DNA from: Haloactinopolyspora alba
GTDB taxonomy: Bacteria; Actinomycetota; Actinomycetes; Jiangellales; Jiangellaceae
Direction: 5' to 3'
Assembly: GCF_003014555.1 (NCBI RefSeq)
Contig: NZ_PYGE01000002.1
Coordinates: forward strand, 186,001-250,000
Length of the DNA: 64,000 bases
Below are positions 6,869 to 27,699 of the stretch, piece by piece. The notes beneath the pieces are model-generated. The model was not told the DNA's origin. It worked only from the letters and a program-made list of their open reading frames with translations, and made no database searches. The stretch's first letter is position 1. The number at the start of each line of letters is the position of its first letter. A program made the position numbers and the translations under genes.

Positions 6869-9800
6869 ATGCAGGAAGAGAACAACGGCTCGGCAGGCGA
6901 TACCAGCTCGGCGGTGGAGGCCGCCGCCGACGAGCGTCAGGCGCCGGCCAAGCGGCGTCGAGCTGCCAGCCGCGCCGCAGGCCCCCCGGTCGAGGACGGT
7001 GTGCCCACGGCCGACACCGGTAGTGACGCCGCCGACGGAGGCGAGGCCACTGCCGCGCCGGTGAAGGCTACGGCCAAGAAGACCGCGGCGAAGAAGACCA
7101 CCGCCAAGAAGACGACGGCGGCGAAGGCCACGGCGAAGAAGTCCACCGCGGCGAAGACCGCCACGAAGGCGACGACGGCGGAGAGCGCTGCGGCCGAACC
7201 GGCGGAGCCGGGCGTGTCGGCCGCGGCCTCCGGTGACGACGACGGCGAGGCCGCCGCACCGTCGTCGAAGGCTCCGGCCAAGAAGACCGCCACCAGGAAG
7301 TCCGCCGGCAAATCCACCGCCAAGAAGGCCACCACCGGAAAATCCGGCGCCGAGCAGGCGACGGGGGAGCAGGCGACGGGCGAGCAGGCGGCCGCCGATC
7401 AGGCGACCGCCAAGAAGAGCACGGCCAACAAGAGCACCGCGAAGAAGACCACCGCCAAGAAGACGACCGCGACGAAGTCGACGGCCAAAAAGACCGCCGA
7501 CACACGCCGGACGAGCGCCGCGAAGACCGCCGAGCCGGAGACCCCGGCCGCGGAATCGGACACGGCAGCCCCGCCCGCGTCGGCGCCCGAGTCGATCGAC
7601 GTCACGGCCGAGTCGACGGAGGGGGCGCCGGCCCCGTCGGCCAGGTCCCGCAACCGCGGTGGTCGCAGCCGGTCCAAGACCGGCACGGCCACGACCGGCA
7701 CGGCCACGACCGGCACGGCCACGACCGGCACGGCCACGACCGGCACGGACGCGTCGACGGGCACGGACACGGCTGCGGACGCGTCCGCAGCCGTGCCGCA
7801 GAGCGAGTCGCCGACCGCCGACGTCACGGAGCCGGCTCCGAGTGGCGGCTTCCCGGACGAGCCCGCCGGCCCCGCCGCCGGGTCGCGACAGCCCGAGGCC
7901 GAGGCCGCCGGTTCGGTACTGTTCCAGCCGCCGCCGGCATTCGACACCACGCCGCTGTTCGCCCCGCCCGACCCGGCTGCCGCGACCCCCGCCGCGCCGA
8001 CCTCGTCCGCTCCGCCGGCGCCGGCCGACGACGCGGTCGACGATGCGGAGGACACCGAGGACTCCGAGGGTGAGGCGACGTCCGGCACGGCAACCGCGAG
8101 CGAGACCGACGAGAGCGACGACGGTGAGGGGACCCGCCGGAAGCGCCGCCGCAGAGGCGGTCGCGGCCGCCGGCGCCGCAGCGACGACTCGGCCGATGCC
8201 GACGGTGACGAGTCCGCCGGCGACGAGGACACGCCGCGAGCCGACGACTCCACCGGCCCGGACAAGGCCGACAGCGAGCGGCCCGACGGCCGAGGTGGTG
8301 ACGCCGACGGCGACACCGACAGCGACGACGACGGTGAGGGTGGTGGCAACCGCCGGCGTCGGCGTCGTCGCCGCCGCAAGAGCGAGTCCGACTCCGAGGA
8401 GACGCGCCCCGACGACCCGCCGAACACGGTCGTGCGGGTCCGTGACCAACGTGAAGCCGAGGACGAGGTCACCTCGGTCAAGGGTTCGACCCGGCTCGAG
8501 GCGAAGAAGCAACGCCGGCGTGAGGGCCGCGAGGCCGGACGTCGCCGGCCGCCGATCCTGTCCGAGTCCGAGTTCCTCGCCCGCAGGGAGGCCGTCGACC
8601 GGGTGATGGCGGTACGCCAGTCCGGCGACCTGACCCAGATCGGCGTGCTCGAGGACGACGTGCTGGTCGAGCACTACGTCAGCCGGGCGTCGCAGCAGTC
8701 GCTGATCGGCAACGTCTACCTCGGCCGGGTGCAGAACGTGCTGCCCGCGATGGAGGCGGCGTTCGTCGACATCGGCCGCGGCCGCAACGCCGTGCTGTAC
8801 GCCGGTGAGGTCGACTGGTCGTCGATGGGCAAGACGGACGGTTCGAAGCGCATCGAGGACGTGCTCAAGTCCGGGCAGTCGGTGCTCGTGCAGGTGACCA
8901 AGGACCCCATCGGGCACAAGGGCGCGCGGCTCACCGGACAGGTCAGCCTTCCGGGCCGGTACGTCGTCTACGTCCCCGGCGGTTCGATGAACGGCATCAG
9001 CCGCAAGCTGCCGGACACCGAACGCAGCCGGCTGAAGAAGATCCTCAAGCAGGTCGTTCCCGAGGACGCCGGCGTCATCGTGCGGACGGCGGCCGAAGGT
9101 GCCTCCGAAGAGGCGCTGACCAACGACGTCTCGCGGCTGCAGGCCGAGTGGGAGGCGATCAGCAAGAAGTCCAACGGCAACGCTCCGGCGTTGTTGCACG
9201 GCGAGCCGGACCTGGCCATCAAGGTGGTCCGGGACCTGTTCAACGAGGACTTCACCAAGCTCGTCGTCTCCGGCGACCGCGCGTGGGACACGATCGACGA
9301 GTACGTCACGCACGTCGCGTCGTCGCTGCGTGAGCGGGTGGAGCGCTGGACCGGACCCGGCGACGTCTTCGCCGCGTACCGGATCGACGAGCAGATCACC
9401 AAGGCGATGGATCGCAAGGTGTGGTTGCCCAGTGGCGGGTCGCTGATCATCGACCGGACCGAGGCGATGACCGTCGTCGACGTCAACACGGGCAAGTTCA
9501 CCGGCTCCGGTGGCAACCTCGAGGAGACGGTCACCCGTAACAACCTCGAAGCGGCCGAAGAGATCGTGCGCCAGCTTCGGCTGCGCGACATCGGCGGCAT
9601 CGTCGTCATCGACTTCATCGACATGGTGCTCGAGGCCAACCGTGACCTGGTGTTGCGGCGGCTGGTCGAGTGCCTCGGACGCGACCGCACGAAGCACCAG
9701 GTCGCCGAGGTGACGTCGCTCGGTCTGGTGCAGATGACCCGCAAGCGCATCGGCACCGGCCTGCTCGAGGCGTTCAGCGAGTCCTGTCCGCACTGCAAGG

Positions 9801-21290: not shown

Positions 21291-21604
21291 GTCACTCCGG
21301 CGTCTTTGGCGCACCCAGGACGCGCGGCCAGGGTGCGCGGCTCGATGATTGCGGATGATCATACGGAGGCAAGGGTAATGAGGTCAATGAACATAATGTG
21401 ATTCAGGTATAGCCGTAATTATGGTTCCCTTTCCGTGTGCGTCCACGGTGCTCGTGAGGTGGCCAATTCGCCTGCGCTGAACCATTCCTCATCCAGCAGG
21501 CCGTCGAATCGAAGTAGCAGGCAGGGTCACCCCGCGTCGCCCCGCGCGCCGGCCCGGCCGATGCTCTCGCACCGATGGTGAGGGTGGTCCGTCCGCTGCC
21601 GTGT

Positions 21605-21680
21605 GCGATCCTTACGCGCCTGGGCGATCCTTACGCGCCTGGGCGATCCTTACGCGCCTGGGCGATCCTGACGCGTGTGG
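21605..21680 (+). repeat. 19-bp tandem repeat, four units
   Basis: Three perfect copies of GCGATCCTTACGCGCCTGG (21605, 21624, 21643) and a diverged fourth (21662-21680). It is non-coding and recently expanded by the look of the identical units. It lies between the sulfatase promoter and the LysR gene. Confidence 0.92.
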
Positions 21681-21692
21681 GCTTTTCGAGAG

Positions 21693-21786
21693 TCGCGGTG
21701 CGCGCCTCGCCGGGCTATTTGACGCTACGTCCGCAGAAGAATGAATGGCAAAGGTGAAATGTCAGCAGCCGACATAGGGAATCCCT
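21693..21786 (+). repeat. 94-bp dispersed repeat, copy 1
   Basis: It aligns without gaps to 27021-27114, with 85 of 94 positions identical. Its right end forms a palindrome at 21769-21793: CCGACA and TGTCGG arms around AGGGA-A-TCCCT. It lies about 215 bp before the LysR start. It may be a LysR operator region or a duplicated promoter fragment. Confidence 0.85.
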
Positions 21787-22001
21787 GTGTCGGTCACCGT
21801 CGAGAGGCTCCGGTCGGGCACACGAGACCAAACCGCCGGCGGCGGTGACATCGAAGTAGCGGGCCCGAAGACGGCGCCGGCCCCGGGTGTGGCGGTGACG
21901 TGTGTGGACTAAGCACGCCGTCTCGCGTGTTGTCGCGCGTGTTACGTCAGGGACGACAACACATGGGGACCGCGGTCCACCCAGTGAGGGGACGAGAGCC
22001 G

Positions 22002-22898
22002 ATGAGCCTTCGGCAGTACGAGTATGCCCTGGCCGTCGCCGAAGCGGGCTCGGTGACCGCGGCGGCGGAGCTTCTGCACGTCGCTCAACCGTCGATGTCG
22101 CAGCAGATCCGCGGCCTGGAGCGGGAGCTCGGCGTGAGCCTGTTCGATCGCACGCCCACCGGGCTGGTGCCCACCGCGGTCGGCCGCGCGTTCCTGCGGG
22201 AGGCCGAGGCCGCGGTGAGTGCGTCGCGGCGGGCGCGGGCGGCGGCGCGGGCCGGCGCCGACGAGCTGGTCGGTGAGGTGGTGGTCGCGGCGCAGATGGG
22301 CTTCGGCACGGGGCAGTTGCCGGGCGCGCTGGGTACGCTGCGTCGCCGCTTCCCGCGGCTGGAGGTCACCGTCTTCGAGGAGCCGAGCTCGGCTGAGCTG
22401 GATCGGCTGTGCCGGCGGGGCGTGCTGGACCTCGCCCTGATGGCGGCGTGCGAGCAGAGCCCTGCCGACGCGCACCGCCTCGGCGACGAGGAGTTCGTCG
22501 TCGCGCTGGGCCCCGGGCACCGGCTGCTCGCCGCGGACCGGGTCGAGCTGCGCGATCTGGCGGGGGAGCCGTGGGTGAGGTTCGACCGCGACAGCGCGCT
22601 CGACGGCGTCCTGCAGGGTGTGCTGCGGGACAACGAGCTGACACCGACGACAGCAGCCCGCGTTTCCCAGACGGCGACGGCCGTGCGCTGGGCCGCCCAC
22701 GGCCTCGGGGTGACGCTCGTTCCGGCCTCCGCGGTGCCCGACGGTTACGAGCACCTCGTCCGCCCGGTGTCCCCGATAGTGTCGCAGCCCGTCATCGCCG
22801 TGCTCCGGCACGATGCGGGCCCGGCGGGAGCGGCCCTGCTCGACGTCCTGCGCCAGGAGACCTGGTCCGAGCCCGGTTCGTTGGCGCTGGTGTCCTGA
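22002..22898 (+). CDS. LysR family transcriptional regulator
   Basis: 298 residues. The N-terminal winged HTH is LRQYEYALAVAEAGSVTAAAELLHVAQPSMSQQIRGLERELGV (given here by its ends: LRQYEYAL to RELGV, residues 3-47), followed by LFDRTPTGLVPT. The effector-binding domain runs from about residue 90 to 295. LysR proteins bind dyad sites and sense small molecules. Start 22002 is chosen because it begins the HTH directly, while the upstream codons (back to 21900) look non-coding. The palindromic repeat copies at 21769 and 27102 are candidate binding sites, which would tie it to the three minus-strand reductase genes at 24.2-26.9 kb. Confidence 0.9.
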   Translation: MSLRQYEYALAVAEAGSVTAAAELLHVAQPSMSQQIRGLERELGVSLFDRTPTGLVPTAVGRAFLREAEAAVSASRRARAAARAGADELVGEVVVAAQMGFGTGQLPGALGTLRRRFPRLEVTVFEEPSSAELDRLCRRGVLDLALMAACEQSPADAHRLGDEEFVVALGPGHRLLAADRVELRDLAGEPWVRFDRDSALDGVLQGVLRDNELTPTTAARVSQTATAVRWAAHGLGVTLVPASAVPDGYEHLVRPVSPIVSQPVIAVLRHDAGPAGAALLDVLRQETWSEPGSLALVS

Positions 22899-22905
22899 CG
22901 GCCGG

Positions 22906-23577
22906 TCATGCGCCGGCTCCGCCGTCGACGGGGACCATCGCACCGGTCACCATCGAGGCGCGCTCGCTGAGCAGCCACGCGGCGGCCTCGGCGACCTCGC
23001 GGGGCTCGGCCATCCGGCCCATCGGGGTGGCGGCGTTGTTCGCTTCGATGATGCCGGGGCTGGCCTTGTCCCAAGCCAGGATCATCTCCGTCGCGGTTCC
23101 GCCGGGGGTGATGCCGTTGACGCGGATGCCTTCCGGCGCCCAGGTCACCGCGGCCGTCTCGGTGAGGCTGTTGAGCGCGCGTTTCATGGCGCCGTACGCG
23201 GGCAGGCCGGGGTTCGCCCGGCGGCTGCCGATGCTGGAGGTGTTGACGATCGCCCCTCCGCCGTTGGCTCGCATGAGCTCGGCCTCAGCGGTCATGGCGG
23301 TCCAATGCGCTCGGAAGTTCACCGCGAACTGCTCGTCGATGTCCTCGTCGCTCGTGGTGTCGATCGGGCCGGGCTGCCGCTGGATGGCCGCGCCGTTGTT
23401 GAACGCGCCGTCGAGCCGTCCGTGTCGCTCCTGGAGATGGTCCAGGGCGGCGTGAATGCTGTTGCCGTCGGCGAGGTCGACGGTCACGGCGTCGGCGGTA
23501 CCACCTGCGACACGGATGCCGGTCACGATGTGGCCGAGGGCATCGGTGCTGCGGGCGGCGAGCACGACGGCGGCGCA
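22906..23577 (-). pseudogene. Short-chain dehydrogenase lacking its N-terminus
   Basis: The remaining frame encodes 219 or slightly more residues of an SDR: NNGAAIQRQPG (NNAG-like), NTSSIGSRRANPGLPAYGAMKRAL (the catalytic Ser and Y-x-x-x-K) and a PVDGGAGA end. The first strand and the GxxxGxG cofactor loop, about 30-35 residues, are absent. The homology begins abruptly at AAVVLAARSTDAL near 23577, exactly where the homology of the divergent regulator gene also begins. A deletion has removed both 5' ends. Without the NAD(P) loop it is unlikely to work. The ATG-equivalent at 23565 would be only a fortuitous start. Confidence 0.8.
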
Positions 23578-24167
23578 CTCCGGGGATGCGGCGGGAAGAG
23601 GTCGCGGTCCTCGCGCACATCTCCACCGAGTACTACGTGCGCCTCGAGCAGGCCCGGGCGCCGCGTCCGTCGGCCGAAGTGCTCGCCGGACTCGCGGCGG
23701 CGTTGCGGCTCACCGACCCCGAATCCCACTACCTGCACCTTCTCGCCGGCACCGCACCGAACCGCACCGACCTGCATCGCAGGGACGTGCGCCCCAGCAT
23801 CCTCGCGCTCCTGGAACGGCTCCCACGGACCGCCGGATTCGTGATGTCGGCCGCGTTCGACGTGCTCGCCTGGAACGACCTGGCCGTGGCGCTCATGGAG
23901 AACTTCGCCGAGCGCGACCCCGCGGACCGCAACCTCGCCCGCCGCGCCTTCCTGCGCTCGTCGCCCGCCGACGAGCCGCTGTACGGGATCACCGACGCCA
24001 CCGAGTTCCGCCAGGAAGTCGTCATGGAACTGCGCGCCGCTCTCGCCCGTTACCCCGCCGACCGTGACCAGCATCTCGTGCTCTACAGCGCTCCCGTGGC
24101 CTCCTCGGACGCCGAGGCGTTGGCCTTCCTCGACGCGTTGGGAGCGGACAGCCTCGAAACGACCTGA
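23568..24167 (+). pseudogene. MmyB-like XRE regulator, 5'-truncated and internally deleted
   Basis: The frame opens inside the HTH at RTPGMRREEVAVLAHIS, where homologues have about 35 more residues (LRSRRARL...). It continues with YVRLEQARAPRPSAEVLAGL and the MmyB-type ligand domain (FVMSAAFDVLAWNDLA). After ALARYPAD it jumps to DRDQHLVLYSAP, and the usual intervening 50-60 residues (EFARLW..., FHHPEVG...) are missing without a frameshift. It is therefore doubly damaged. It stands head to head with the truncated SDR at 22906, and such regulators typically control the divergent SDR gene. The ATG at 23586 would give a 193-residue product. Confidence 0.8.
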
Positions 24168-24221
24168 TCGCGGCGATGCTGTTCACCCGGCCGCACGGCG
24201 ACGCCGGTGGCAGGGACTCGT

Positions 24222-25238
24222 CTACTCGGCGAGCCGCACGACGACGTTGCCGCGGTGCACGCCGGCGAGGAGCTCGTCCTGGGCGGTGACGGCGCGCTGG
24301 AGCGTGCCTTCGAGGAGCGTGTGCGCGAACCTGATCCGGCCTTCGGCGTACCACTGGGCGTAGTGGGTGTTCCAGGCCTGGATCTGGTCCGGGGTGTGCC
24401 TGGTGCTGAACGGGAGGATCCGCACCTCGTGGGCGAGCGCGGTCATGATGTCGAGTCGTGGGTGCCCGCCGTCGCCGCCGCCCACCTGTCCGGCGAGGGC
24501 GCCGGCCAGCGCGAAGCGGGCGCCGGACGCCGCGTGCCGCAGCGCCGCCTCGAACTGCGGACCGCCGATGGTGTCGAAGAAGGCGGTGATGCCGTCGGGC
24601 GCGAGCTCGGCGAGACGGTCGTCGAGGTCGTCGTCGTGGTGGTCGATGGCGGCGTCGAGGCCGAGCTCGTCGACGAGGTAACGGGCCTTCTCCGGCCCGC
24701 CGGCGATGCCGATGACCGAAGCACCACGTGCCTTGGCGATCTGCGCGGCCATCGACCCGACGCCGCCAGCGGCTCCGCTGACGAGGACGACGTCCCCCGC
24801 GCCGACGGCGGCGACGTCGACGATGCCGTGGTAGGCGGGAACGCCCTGGTTGAGCAGGTACTCGGGGCCGGGGAAGACGCCGTCGGGCACGGGGAACGCC
24901 TCACCCGGCCCGAGGATGCTCTCCTCGCGCCAGCCCGACATGTGCAGCACGACGGTGCCCACCGGCAGGTCGTCGGCGCGTGACTCGACGACCCTGCCGA
25001 TCGCGGTGCCGTAGAGCGGTTCGCCGACCCGGAAGACGGGAACCGGGATCTGGCTGGTCTCGAACATCAGGTCGCCGTTGGCCGCGATCACCTGCTGGAA
25101 CAGGTTCCGCACCCGCACCTGGCCGGCAGCCGGCTCCTGTGGAGGCTGCTCGACCACCTCCAGCAGCGAGCTGGGCGGCTGGGCGAGATCCGTGCGGTGC
25201 GCGCGTAGGACGACGGCGGATGATCCCTGAACGGGCAT
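24222..25238 (-). CDS. Zinc-independent MDR family NADP-dependent oxidoreductase
   Basis: A 338-residue medium-chain reductase of the 2-alkenal/prostaglandin reductase (leukotriene B4 dehydrogenase-like) type. The N-terminal GroES-like part lacks zinc ligands, and the cofactor motif VLVSGAAGGVGSMAAQIAK lies near residue 165. FDTIGGPQFEAALRH is typical of these reductases. It would reduce an activated C=C bond with NADPH. It is the last gene of a minus-strand set of three (SDR, SDR, MDR; gaps 102 and 64 bp), probably an operon starting at 26937. Confidence 0.88.
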   Translation of the reverse strand: MPVQGSSAVVLRAHRTDLAQPPSSLLEVVEQPPQEPAAGQVRVRNLFQQVIAANGDLMFETSQIPVPVFRVGEPLYGTAIGRVVESRADDLPVGTVVLHMSGWREESILGPGEAFPVPDGVFPGPEYLLNQGVPAYHGIVDVAAVGAGDVVLVSGAAGGVGSMAAQIAKARGASVIGIAGGPEKARYLVDELGLDAAIDHHDDDLDDRLAELAPDGITAFFDTIGGPQFEAALRHAASGARFALAGALAGQVGGGDGGHPRLDIMTALAHEVRILPFSTRHTPDQIQAWNTHYAQWYAEGRIRFAHTLLEGTLQRAVTAQDELLAGVHRGNVVVRLAE

Positions 25239-25302
25239 GATGAATCCTCGTGGTCGGTCGTTGCCGGGCTGAGGAGCCCATGGCGGAACGGGTGGGACGA
25301 GC

Positions 25303-26046
25303 TCAGAGCTGGGTGACGCCGCCGTCCAGAGCGAGTTCGGCGCCGGTGGTGTACGTGGCGCCGAAGGCGAGGAAGACGGCCGCCCGGGCGAACTCGCCGA
25401 GGGTGCCGAAACGCTGCATCGGATTGTCCGCGACCACCTGCGCCTTGAACTGCGCGGCGGCCTCCGCGGTCATCGTGTTCTCCAGAATCCCGGTGTCGAT
25501 CGGCCCGGGGCTGACCGCGTTCACCCGGACCTCGCGGGCAAGCAGCTCGCGGGAGAGGCTGCGCGCCATCGAGCGCAGTGCGGCTTTGCCGGCCGCGTAG
25601 ACGCTGGTGTCCAGCATGCCGACGGCGTTGGCGCTCGAGGTGGTGAGGACGACGCCGGCGCCCGTGCTCAGCAGCGGGGCGAGCTTCTGCACGGTGAAGT
25701 AGGCGCCCTTGACGTTGATCGCGAACAGCTCGTCGTACACCTGCTCGGTCGTCGACTCGAAGGGCGTGGTGCGTGCGATGCCGGCGTTGACGAACAGCGC
25801 CTCGATGGTGCCGAGCTCACCTTTCACCCGGTCGGCCAGATCGTCCAGGTCGGACAGTGAGGCCACGTCGCCCCGGACCGCGATCGCGTTCTCGCCGAGC
25901 CGCTCCCGCGCGGCGTCGAGCGTGTGCTGTGAACGACCGGTGATCACCACGCGGGCTCCGCCGTCCACCAGTAGCTGCGCCAGCGCGAACCCCATGCCGC
26001 TGCCGCCGCCGGTGATCACCACGTTCTTGTCGCTGTACTCACCCAT
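25303..26046 (-). CDS. SDR family oxidoreductase
   Basis: 247 residues, full length for a classical SDR. The cofactor motif TGGGSGMG (residues 12-19), NAGIA, the catalytic Ser-x-Tyr-x-x-x-Lys (TTSSANAVG... YAAGKAAL) and the C-terminal LALDGGVTQL are present. It would oxidise an alcohol or reduce a ketone; the substrate is unknown. It is the middle gene of the putative three-gene reductase operon. Confidence 0.9.
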   Translation of the reverse strand: MGEYSDKNVVITGGGSGMGFALAQLLVDGGARVVITGRSQHTLDAARERLGENAIAVRGDVASLSDLDDLADRVKGELGTIEALFVNAGIARTTPFESTTEQVYDELFAINVKGAYFTVQKLAPLLSTGAGVVLTTSSANAVGMLDTSVYAAGKAALRSMARSLSRELLAREVRVNAVSPGPIDTGILENTMTAEAAAQFKAQVVADNPMQRFGTLGEFARAAVFLAFGATYTTGAELALDGGVTQL

Positions 26047-26148
26047 GCCGGATTCCCTCGGTCTTTCTCGAAAACTCGGTGATGTGTCCCGGCGCGAAGT
26101 CGATGAATGCTTGTCGCCGGTGTGTGGCGTTTCGGAAAACCGTCGGCG

Positions 26149-26937
26149 TCAATCCATCGGGAATTCGCCGCCGTCCACGATGAGATTGCGCCCGGTCAGC
26201 CAGCCGGCCCTCTCGGACACGAAGAACAGCACCGCGTGGGCGATGTCGTCGGGCTGACCATCGCGCCCCAGCGGCGGCGTGTCGCTGGCGTTGGTCTCCG
26301 CCGGCGCCGCACCCATGCGTGCGGTCACCTCCGCCCACTGTTCCCGCGTCGTTTCGCCGCCGGGGGTGGCGACCCTGCCGGGAGTGACGGTGTTGACACG
26401 GATACCGGCCGTGGCCAGCTCCATGGCCATTCCCCGGCTGTAGTTGTCCAGTGCCGCCTTCGCCGTGGTGTAGTGCAGGAACTGTCCTACCGGGGTGAGC
26501 ACGGCGGCCGACGAGACATGCACGATCGCCCCGTCACCGCGTTCCCGCATCCCCGGCACCAGCTGCACGTCCAGCCGCACCGACGCCAGGAAGTTCAGGT
26601 CCAGCGCGTCCTGCCACTCCTCGTCCGGGATGGCCGCGACGCCTTCGTGCGGGCGCGCCCCGCCCGCGTTGTGGACCAGGATGTCCACCCCGCCGAGCAT
26701 GTCCTGTGCGGCCGTGGCGAGAGCCTGCGCTCCGGCCTTGGTCCGGACGTCGGCCTCCACGAAGGTGGCCCCTTCCGGCACGGTGCTCGTCGCTGACCTG
26801 GCGGTCGTGAGCACGTCGGCGCCGGCGTCCAGGAGCTGGCGTACGACGGCTGCTCCGATTCCGCGTGAACCGCCCGTGACCAGGGCCCGCTTTCCCTTGA
26901 GTTCTTGCGTTCCCGAGCCGTTCTCGAACGTGGTCAT
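26149..26937 (-). CDS. SDR family oxidoreductase
   Basis: 262 residues. TGGSRGIG gives the cofactor loop near residue 22, HNAGG follows, VHVSSAAVL...YTTAKAAL provides the Ser, Tyr and Lys, and the end is LIVDGGEFPMD. Start 26937 follows GAGAGGACC, and the reading frame farther upstream (to 27234) runs through the dispersed repeat and is not coding. It is the first gene of the reductase set. The palindrome ATAGGGAATCCCTAT lies about 165 bp upstream. Confidence 0.9.
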   Translation of the reverse strand: MTTFENGSGTQELKGKRALVTGGSRGIGAAVVRQLLDAGADVLTTARSATSTVPEGATFVEADVRTKAGAQALATAAQDMLGGVDILVHNAGGARPHEGVAAIPDEEWQDALDLNFLASVRLDVQLVPGMRERGDGAIVHVSSAAVLTPVGQFLHYTTAKAALDNYSRGMAMELATAGIRVNTVTPGRVATPGGETTREQWAEVTARMGAAPAETNASDTPPLGRDGQPDDIAHAVLFFVSERAGWLTGRNLIVDGGEFPMD

Positions 26938-27020
26938 GCCATGGTCCTCTCGTTTGCGAGTTCGTCCGCTCGACGGAGGAAAGAATTCACGTGCGCACCA
27001 GCGCGAATATTCTGGAGAAA

Positions 27021-27114
27021 TCGCGGTGAGCACCTCGCCGAGCAATTTGACGCTACGTCCGCAGCAGAACGAATGGCAAAGACGAAATGTCAGCAGCCGC
27101 CATAGGGAATCCCT
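27021..27114 (+). repeat. 94-bp dispersed repeat, copy 2
   Basis: 90% identical to 21693-21786 in the same orientation. Its core at 27102-27116 is ATAGGGAATCCCTAT, with seven-base arms around a central A. It stands between the divergent starts of the SDR at 26937 and the lipoprotein at 27214. Together with copy 1 it brackets the LysR-reductase block. Confidence 0.85.
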
Positions 27115-27213
27115 ATATCGCTCCAAGGCGAGGCGGAACCGGACGGGTGCGGTGGACGTCGGATCCATGCGACACCGAGCCGCATCGACGACTCCATCGC
27201 AGAGGAGAGGTCC

Positions 27214-27699
27214 GTGCTCATGTGGCGAAAGCACCGAGCTGTACCCGCCGTCGCGATCGTGGTGCTCGGTGGCCTCACGGCCTGTGGATCAGAGGATCAG
27301 CCGAGCGATCGTGGCGAACAGCGTGTTCAGGCGCAGAACAACGGCGACGAGACCACTGACATCAGCGCTTCGTGCGCCAAGCCCATGACCGACGTGTCCG
27401 ACGCCACCGTTGTCGCGGGCGAGTCGATCGGCGTGTCCGCCAAGGGGATGTGGGAACAGTGTCTCCCTCCTGGCTGGAACACTCCGGGCGTGACACCCGG
27501 CGAGCGGGTCCCGGACACGGATCTGCGTGTCGTGTGGCGACAGGGCTCCGCGGAGTCTGTCCTGGACACTGTGGACGCCGACGCTGACGGCGTCGTCGAA
27601 CTGTCGGTGACGATTCCCGACGATGCGCAACCGGGGGCGGCCGACATCACGATCGCCACCGCAGTGTCAGCAACGGTCACCGTCGAATCAGCGAACTGA
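27214..27699 (+). CDS. Small secreted lipoprotein of unknown function
   Basis: A 161-residue precursor. A basic start, a hydrophobic segment AVAIVVLGGL and the lipobox LTAC with Cys24 make it a lipoprotein. The mature part has two further cysteines (CAKPM, EQCLPPG) that could form a disulfide. It ends in a beta-rich domain (VVELSVTIPDDAQPGAADITI) that looks like an immunoglobulin-type fold. I do not recognise a family. GGAGAGG precedes both GTG 27214 and ATG 27220, and either may be the start. It is divergent from the SDR gene. Confidence 0.75.
   Translation: MLMWRKHRAVPAVAIVVLGGLTACGSEDQPSDRGEQRVQAQNNGDETTDISASCAKPMTDVSDATVVAGESIGVSAKGMWEQCLPPGWNTPGVTPGERVPDTDLRVVWRQGSAESVLDTVDADADGVVELSVTIPDDAQPGAADITIATAVSATVTVESAN

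Follow-up and report, generated by a model that had tools for sequence, protein, structure and literature searches.

Two truncated genes meeting head to head

Within the window (the entire 64,000-nucleotide stretch of Haloactinopolyspora alba DNA that we analyzed), two divergently oriented genes meet without an intervening promoter region: an SDR remnant on the minus strand (22906-23577) and an MmyB-like regulator remnant on the plus strand (23568-24167). We annotate the SDR as a 5'-truncated pseudogene, based on its Pfam adh_short_C2 match and on alignment with the same-family locus L094 and 78 relatives. Its stop codon lies at 22906-22908, and the first start codon in frame is GTG 23565. The adh_short_C2 match opens at profile position 42. 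The NNG, TSS, and YGAMK (YxxxK) motifs are all kept, including the catalytic serine. Missing are the first ~38 residues, with the N-terminal TGxxxGxG cofactor motif; this motif reads TGASRGIG, and each of its positions is conserved in more than 90% of relatives.

The regulator remnant was assigned from its Pfam HTH_31 and MLTR_LBD domains and from its relatives. Homology on the plus strand begins at 23568 (RRRTPGM), the earliest start codon is ATG 23586, and the resulting frame spans 23586-24167. The remnant lacks its first 28 residues, which hold HTH helix 1, and 55 internal residues. HTH_31 scores above the Pfam cut-off, but its alignment opens at position 16 of the 64-position profile, with everything before RRRTPG gone, and the best MLTR_LBD stretch covers only positions 1-90 of 168, short of a complete domain. 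Four arginines, each conserved in more than 95% of relatives, are among the lost first 28 residues, and the lost 55-residue segment contains many invariant positions (for example W222, K235, H239, D248, and C249). R11, R13, R14, and W222, which lie in the deleted stretches, are conserved in more than 90% of relatives. The divergent SDR neighbor is present as a remnant, and the common intergenic region is deleted. Judged on its domains, the regulator remnant is a family member by descent that would fail as a working MmyB-like regulator. A sequence search of solved structures with the regulator returned only a distant HTH domain, so the deleted residues could not be mapped by sequence onto MltR (3pxp). 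AlphaFold2 modeled neither the intact regulator of Phytoactinopolyspora endophytica (G017) nor the remnant well (mean pLDDT 49 and 47, respectively), and no conclusion rests on these models.

The intact pair in relatives and the two deletions

Using the regulator as query, we scanned genomes of bacteria and archaea and kept the best 80 loci. Nearly all encode a full-length regulator and a divergent SDR, with a start-to-start distance of mostly 86-88 bp; the exceptions are one locus with its SDR match 639 bp off (L054) and one cut by a contig end (L023). At a further locus, in Pseudonocardia sp. CNS-004 (L084, 4307-5744), the regulator matches from residue 33 on and the SDR over residues 1-164 only, and this may perhaps be another damaged or frameshifted copy. 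Paired 5' truncation is absent from all of the best 80 relatives. The short forms were seen in the window alone and in none of the relatives examined. Within the window's own family, Jiangellaceae, the pair is patchily distributed: 2 of 22 genomes carry it, that of the window and that of P. endophytica, whose intact copy (L094) is the closest, with the SDR starting at 8943 (minus strand), the regulator at 9029 (plus strand), and 85 bp between them. A genome of the same genus (G001) has no orthologous pair, which makes that comparison uninformative. In a class-wide search, all genomes matching both halves of the query (eight, including P. endophytica) split it at ~663-681. Streptomyces plasmids split the query likewise, and their intact pair occupies ~1,704 bp, versus 1,230 bp in the window. 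Other MmyB-like paralogs in the window's genome have open frames and reach at most about 41% identity.

By blastn, window positions 22906-23576 correspond to 8158-8828 of L094 (83% DNA identity) and positions 23568-24066 to 9113-9611 (78%). From the first of these blocks to the second, the offset shifts by 293 bp, and this missing stretch comprises ~38 codons of the SDR, 85 bp of intergenic DNA, and 28 codons of the regulator; ~10 bp are assignable either way. Counted up to ATG 23586, the regulator has lost 34 codons. The original prediction, made without database searches, was that both homologies begin at one point, that a single deletion explains both 5' losses, and that the shared promoter is gone. 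Alignment with relatives carrying the intact pair came out accordingly: blastn and Pfam place the SDR end at ~23577 and the regulator start at 23568, one contiguous 293-bp gap spans both 5' ends, and the intergenic region of ~85 bp is missing relative to L094. The predicted loss was about 35 residues from each gene, against the values given above. On nearly all points, the prediction was correct.

The SDR and regulator homologies meet at 23568-23577, and blastn overlap of the flanks, a base-by-base view, and the parental sequences in 78 relatives place the deletion junction at CGGCGGCGC (23568-23576). This sequence reads equally well as SDR Ala-Ala codons with their neighbors (antisense) or as regulator Arg-Arg-Arg. 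The short homology sought near 23570 is plausible in the sense that CGGCGGCGC fits both sides. Within individual relatives, the in-register overlap amounts to no more than 2-8 nt, as third-base variation affects the three arginine codons; the exact sequence is found on the SDR side in 24 of 78 relatives and on the regulator side in 1 of 78. The 9 nt of junction microhomology are therefore an upper bound and not a measurement. An overlap of at least 7 nt at a random breakpoint has a probability of about 0.002. Together, these data make a microhomology deletion at this junction plausible.

Comparison with L094 and other relatives places a second junction in the regulator at 24055-24064 (plus strand). 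Here, an in-frame gap of 165 bp near 24057 removes exactly 55 codons from the ligand-binding domain, bearing out the expectation of 50-60 internal residues lost without a frameshift. In several intact relatives, the motif CCGACC flanks this junction on both sides. None of the 80 relatives shares the internal deletion, in that none lacks 20 or more residues of the 55-residue segment.

In relatives, the region lost at the first junction holds a conserved block, CGGATrCAGGcACAGGcnGTACCAGGATCCG, whose conservation leads us to infer a promoter/operator function. CAGGcACAGGcnGTACCAGG is strongly conserved between the SDR and regulator starts across Actinobacteria (L014-L093) and is a candidate operator of this regulator subfamily. 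CACACT-like hexamers lie six bases ahead of the regulator start in relatives, and the SDR start is preceded by a similar arrangement; this placement would fit leaderless promoters on both sides. The core of the operator-like block has no match in the whole window at up to 3 mismatches.

Genomic neighborhood of the remnants

The damaged pair is flanked on the left by a LysR regulator gene (22002-22898, plus strand; Pfam) and on the right by an intact MDR-type oxidoreductase gene (24222-25238, minus strand; Pfam ADH_N_2/ADH_zinc_N) and an intact SDR gene (25303-26046, minus strand; domain match). Comparison with another genome of the family (G020) identifies the LysR and intact SDR genes as the left and right borders of a shared cassette: a LysR-SDR-SDR cassette at 21893-27124 is common to both genomes at 84% identity. 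The LysR gene is itself 84% identical to its counterpart, and homology stops at about its stop codon. In G020, the LysR gene and the SDR genes (25303-27234 in the window) are adjacent, with only 18 bp between the aligned blocks, indicating that a ~2.3-kb block (22899-25238) was inserted in the window relative to G020 or lost there. The MDR gene belongs to the same ~2.3-kb block as the damaged pair and is absent from the G020 cassette. Oxidoreductase-regulator modules thus appear to be swapped between genomes at this site. In the same-genus genome G001, none of the cassette or the pair was matched at 1e-20.

Two repeats lie around this cassette. A 112-nt direct repeat, 86% identical between its copies, occurs upstream of the LysR gene (21693-21804) and upstream of the SDR operon (27021-27132). 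Each copy holds a TAGGGAATCCCTA-like palindrome, and the repeat is possibly a duplicated promoter/operator. Also upstream of the LysR gene, positions 21602-21677 contain about four tandem copies of the 19-bp unit TGGGCGATCCTTACGCGCC.

A probable inactivated copy and its alternatives

We conclude that the locus is very probably an inactivated copy, made by deletions, of a widespread actinobacterial SDR/MmyB-like regulator pair, in which the divergent genes share one short putative promoter/operator region and the regulator presumably controls the SDR. Comparison with relatives shows one deletion of ~293 bp, bounded by short G+C-rich sequences within the coding 5' ends of both genes, that took the starts and the putative promoters and operator, and a separate 165-bp in-frame deletion that cut out part of the regulator's ligand-binding domain. 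The junctions suggest illegitimate recombination or replication slippage as the mechanism. Neither truncated gene is likely to be functional: the SDR because its Rossmann dinucleotide motif and promoter are gone, and the regulator because it has lost HTH helix 1 and its promoter and its ligand-binding domain is gutted.

Several features count against a pseudogene pair. Both frames are open, each happens to open near a usable start codon, and the 165-bp deletion is in frame, an outcome with a chance of 1/3. GC3 is high and near normal (0.90 and 0.89), as is dN/dS against relatives (0.27 vs 0.23 for the SDR, 0.20 vs 0.19 for the regulator; median rank 63/79 and 55/81, respectively). Changes at conserved positions number 6/120 in the regulator (rank 79 of 81) and 2/116 in the SDR (rank 67 of 79), and overall the substitution patterns point to mild relaxation at most. 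Open frames, high GC3, and near-normal dN/dS are expected if the deletions are recent, and the loss of the pair probably is. The pair lies in the ~2.3-kb block absent from the collinear G020 cassette and is thus accessory DNA, whose loss is presumably tolerated.

Other readings of the locus fit less well. We consider it highly unlikely that the pair is really intact and that G+C-rich repeats produced two false deletions through an assembly or sequencing error: while the junctions do sit in G+C-rich sequence with short repeats, and the genome is a draft in 49 contigs, this reading requires one pair to have picked up two clean deletions independently, deep within a 521,700-bp contig, at overlaps (<10 nt) too short for the collapse of normal reads, and a search of the genome found no second copy with the missing parts. 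Just as improbable is that the short regulator is a functional variant re-started by a leaderless-type start at ATG 23586. Position 35 is leucine in 80 of 80 relatives and methionine only in the window (without this ATG, the first start codon of the frame is GTG 23637), ACT lies six bases ahead of the ATG as in the parental promoter, the -16 to -1 context beats 99.5% of window ATGs on a profile of parental promoters, and the internal deletion preserves the frame. On that same profile, however, the site scores -0.99, whereas the parental promoters have a median of 18.7, its CACACT-like hexamer has G in place of A, the protein lacks HTH helix 1 and 55 residues of the ligand-binding domain, and the resemblance was noticed after the fact; the Leu to Met change is probably chance. 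Still more doubtful is the idea that the regulator remnant, newly started at an ATG whose context mimics the lost leaderless promoter and expressed in truncated form, could disturb other MmyB-like regulators, its paralogs in the same cell. Least credible of all, the truncated SDR could still be expressed in a non-catalytic role as the last gene of a minus-strand SDR-SDR-MDR cluster. It is on the same strand as the gene at 24222-25238, lies downstream of it, and keeps its catalytic residues, but the antisense regulator remnant lies in between and the cofactor-binding motif is missing.

MmyB-like regulators, often with an SDR or MDR gene as divergent neighbor, have already been described as a family (Xu et al, 2012; PMC3406030), and our literature search found nothing more specific to this case. 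The window's pair resembles MmyB-like regulators of the MltR family paired with an SDR in its domains and divergent layout, and its remaining part shares about 72-79% protein identity with these relatives. It differs in that both genes and their common promoter are truncated, whereas the relatives examined are essentially whole. As in ordinary pseudogenes formed by short-homology deletion, the deletions are clean, the joints carry short G+C-rich sequence, no residual promoter is evident, and the frames were probably inactivated recently; unlike in those cases, one event here disables two divergent genes via their common promoter. The locus is an ordinary pseudogene scar, for which known biology suffices and no new mechanism is required.

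As a clear case, the locus illustrates that a divergent, promoter-sharing layout leaves two genes exposed to one small deletion. It also serves as a warning, as both ORFs are remnants, although a gene caller may list them as short but intact genes. Finally, our survey shows that the SDR/MmyB-like pair and its common region are uniform across Actinobacteria, and offers a candidate operator for this subfamily.
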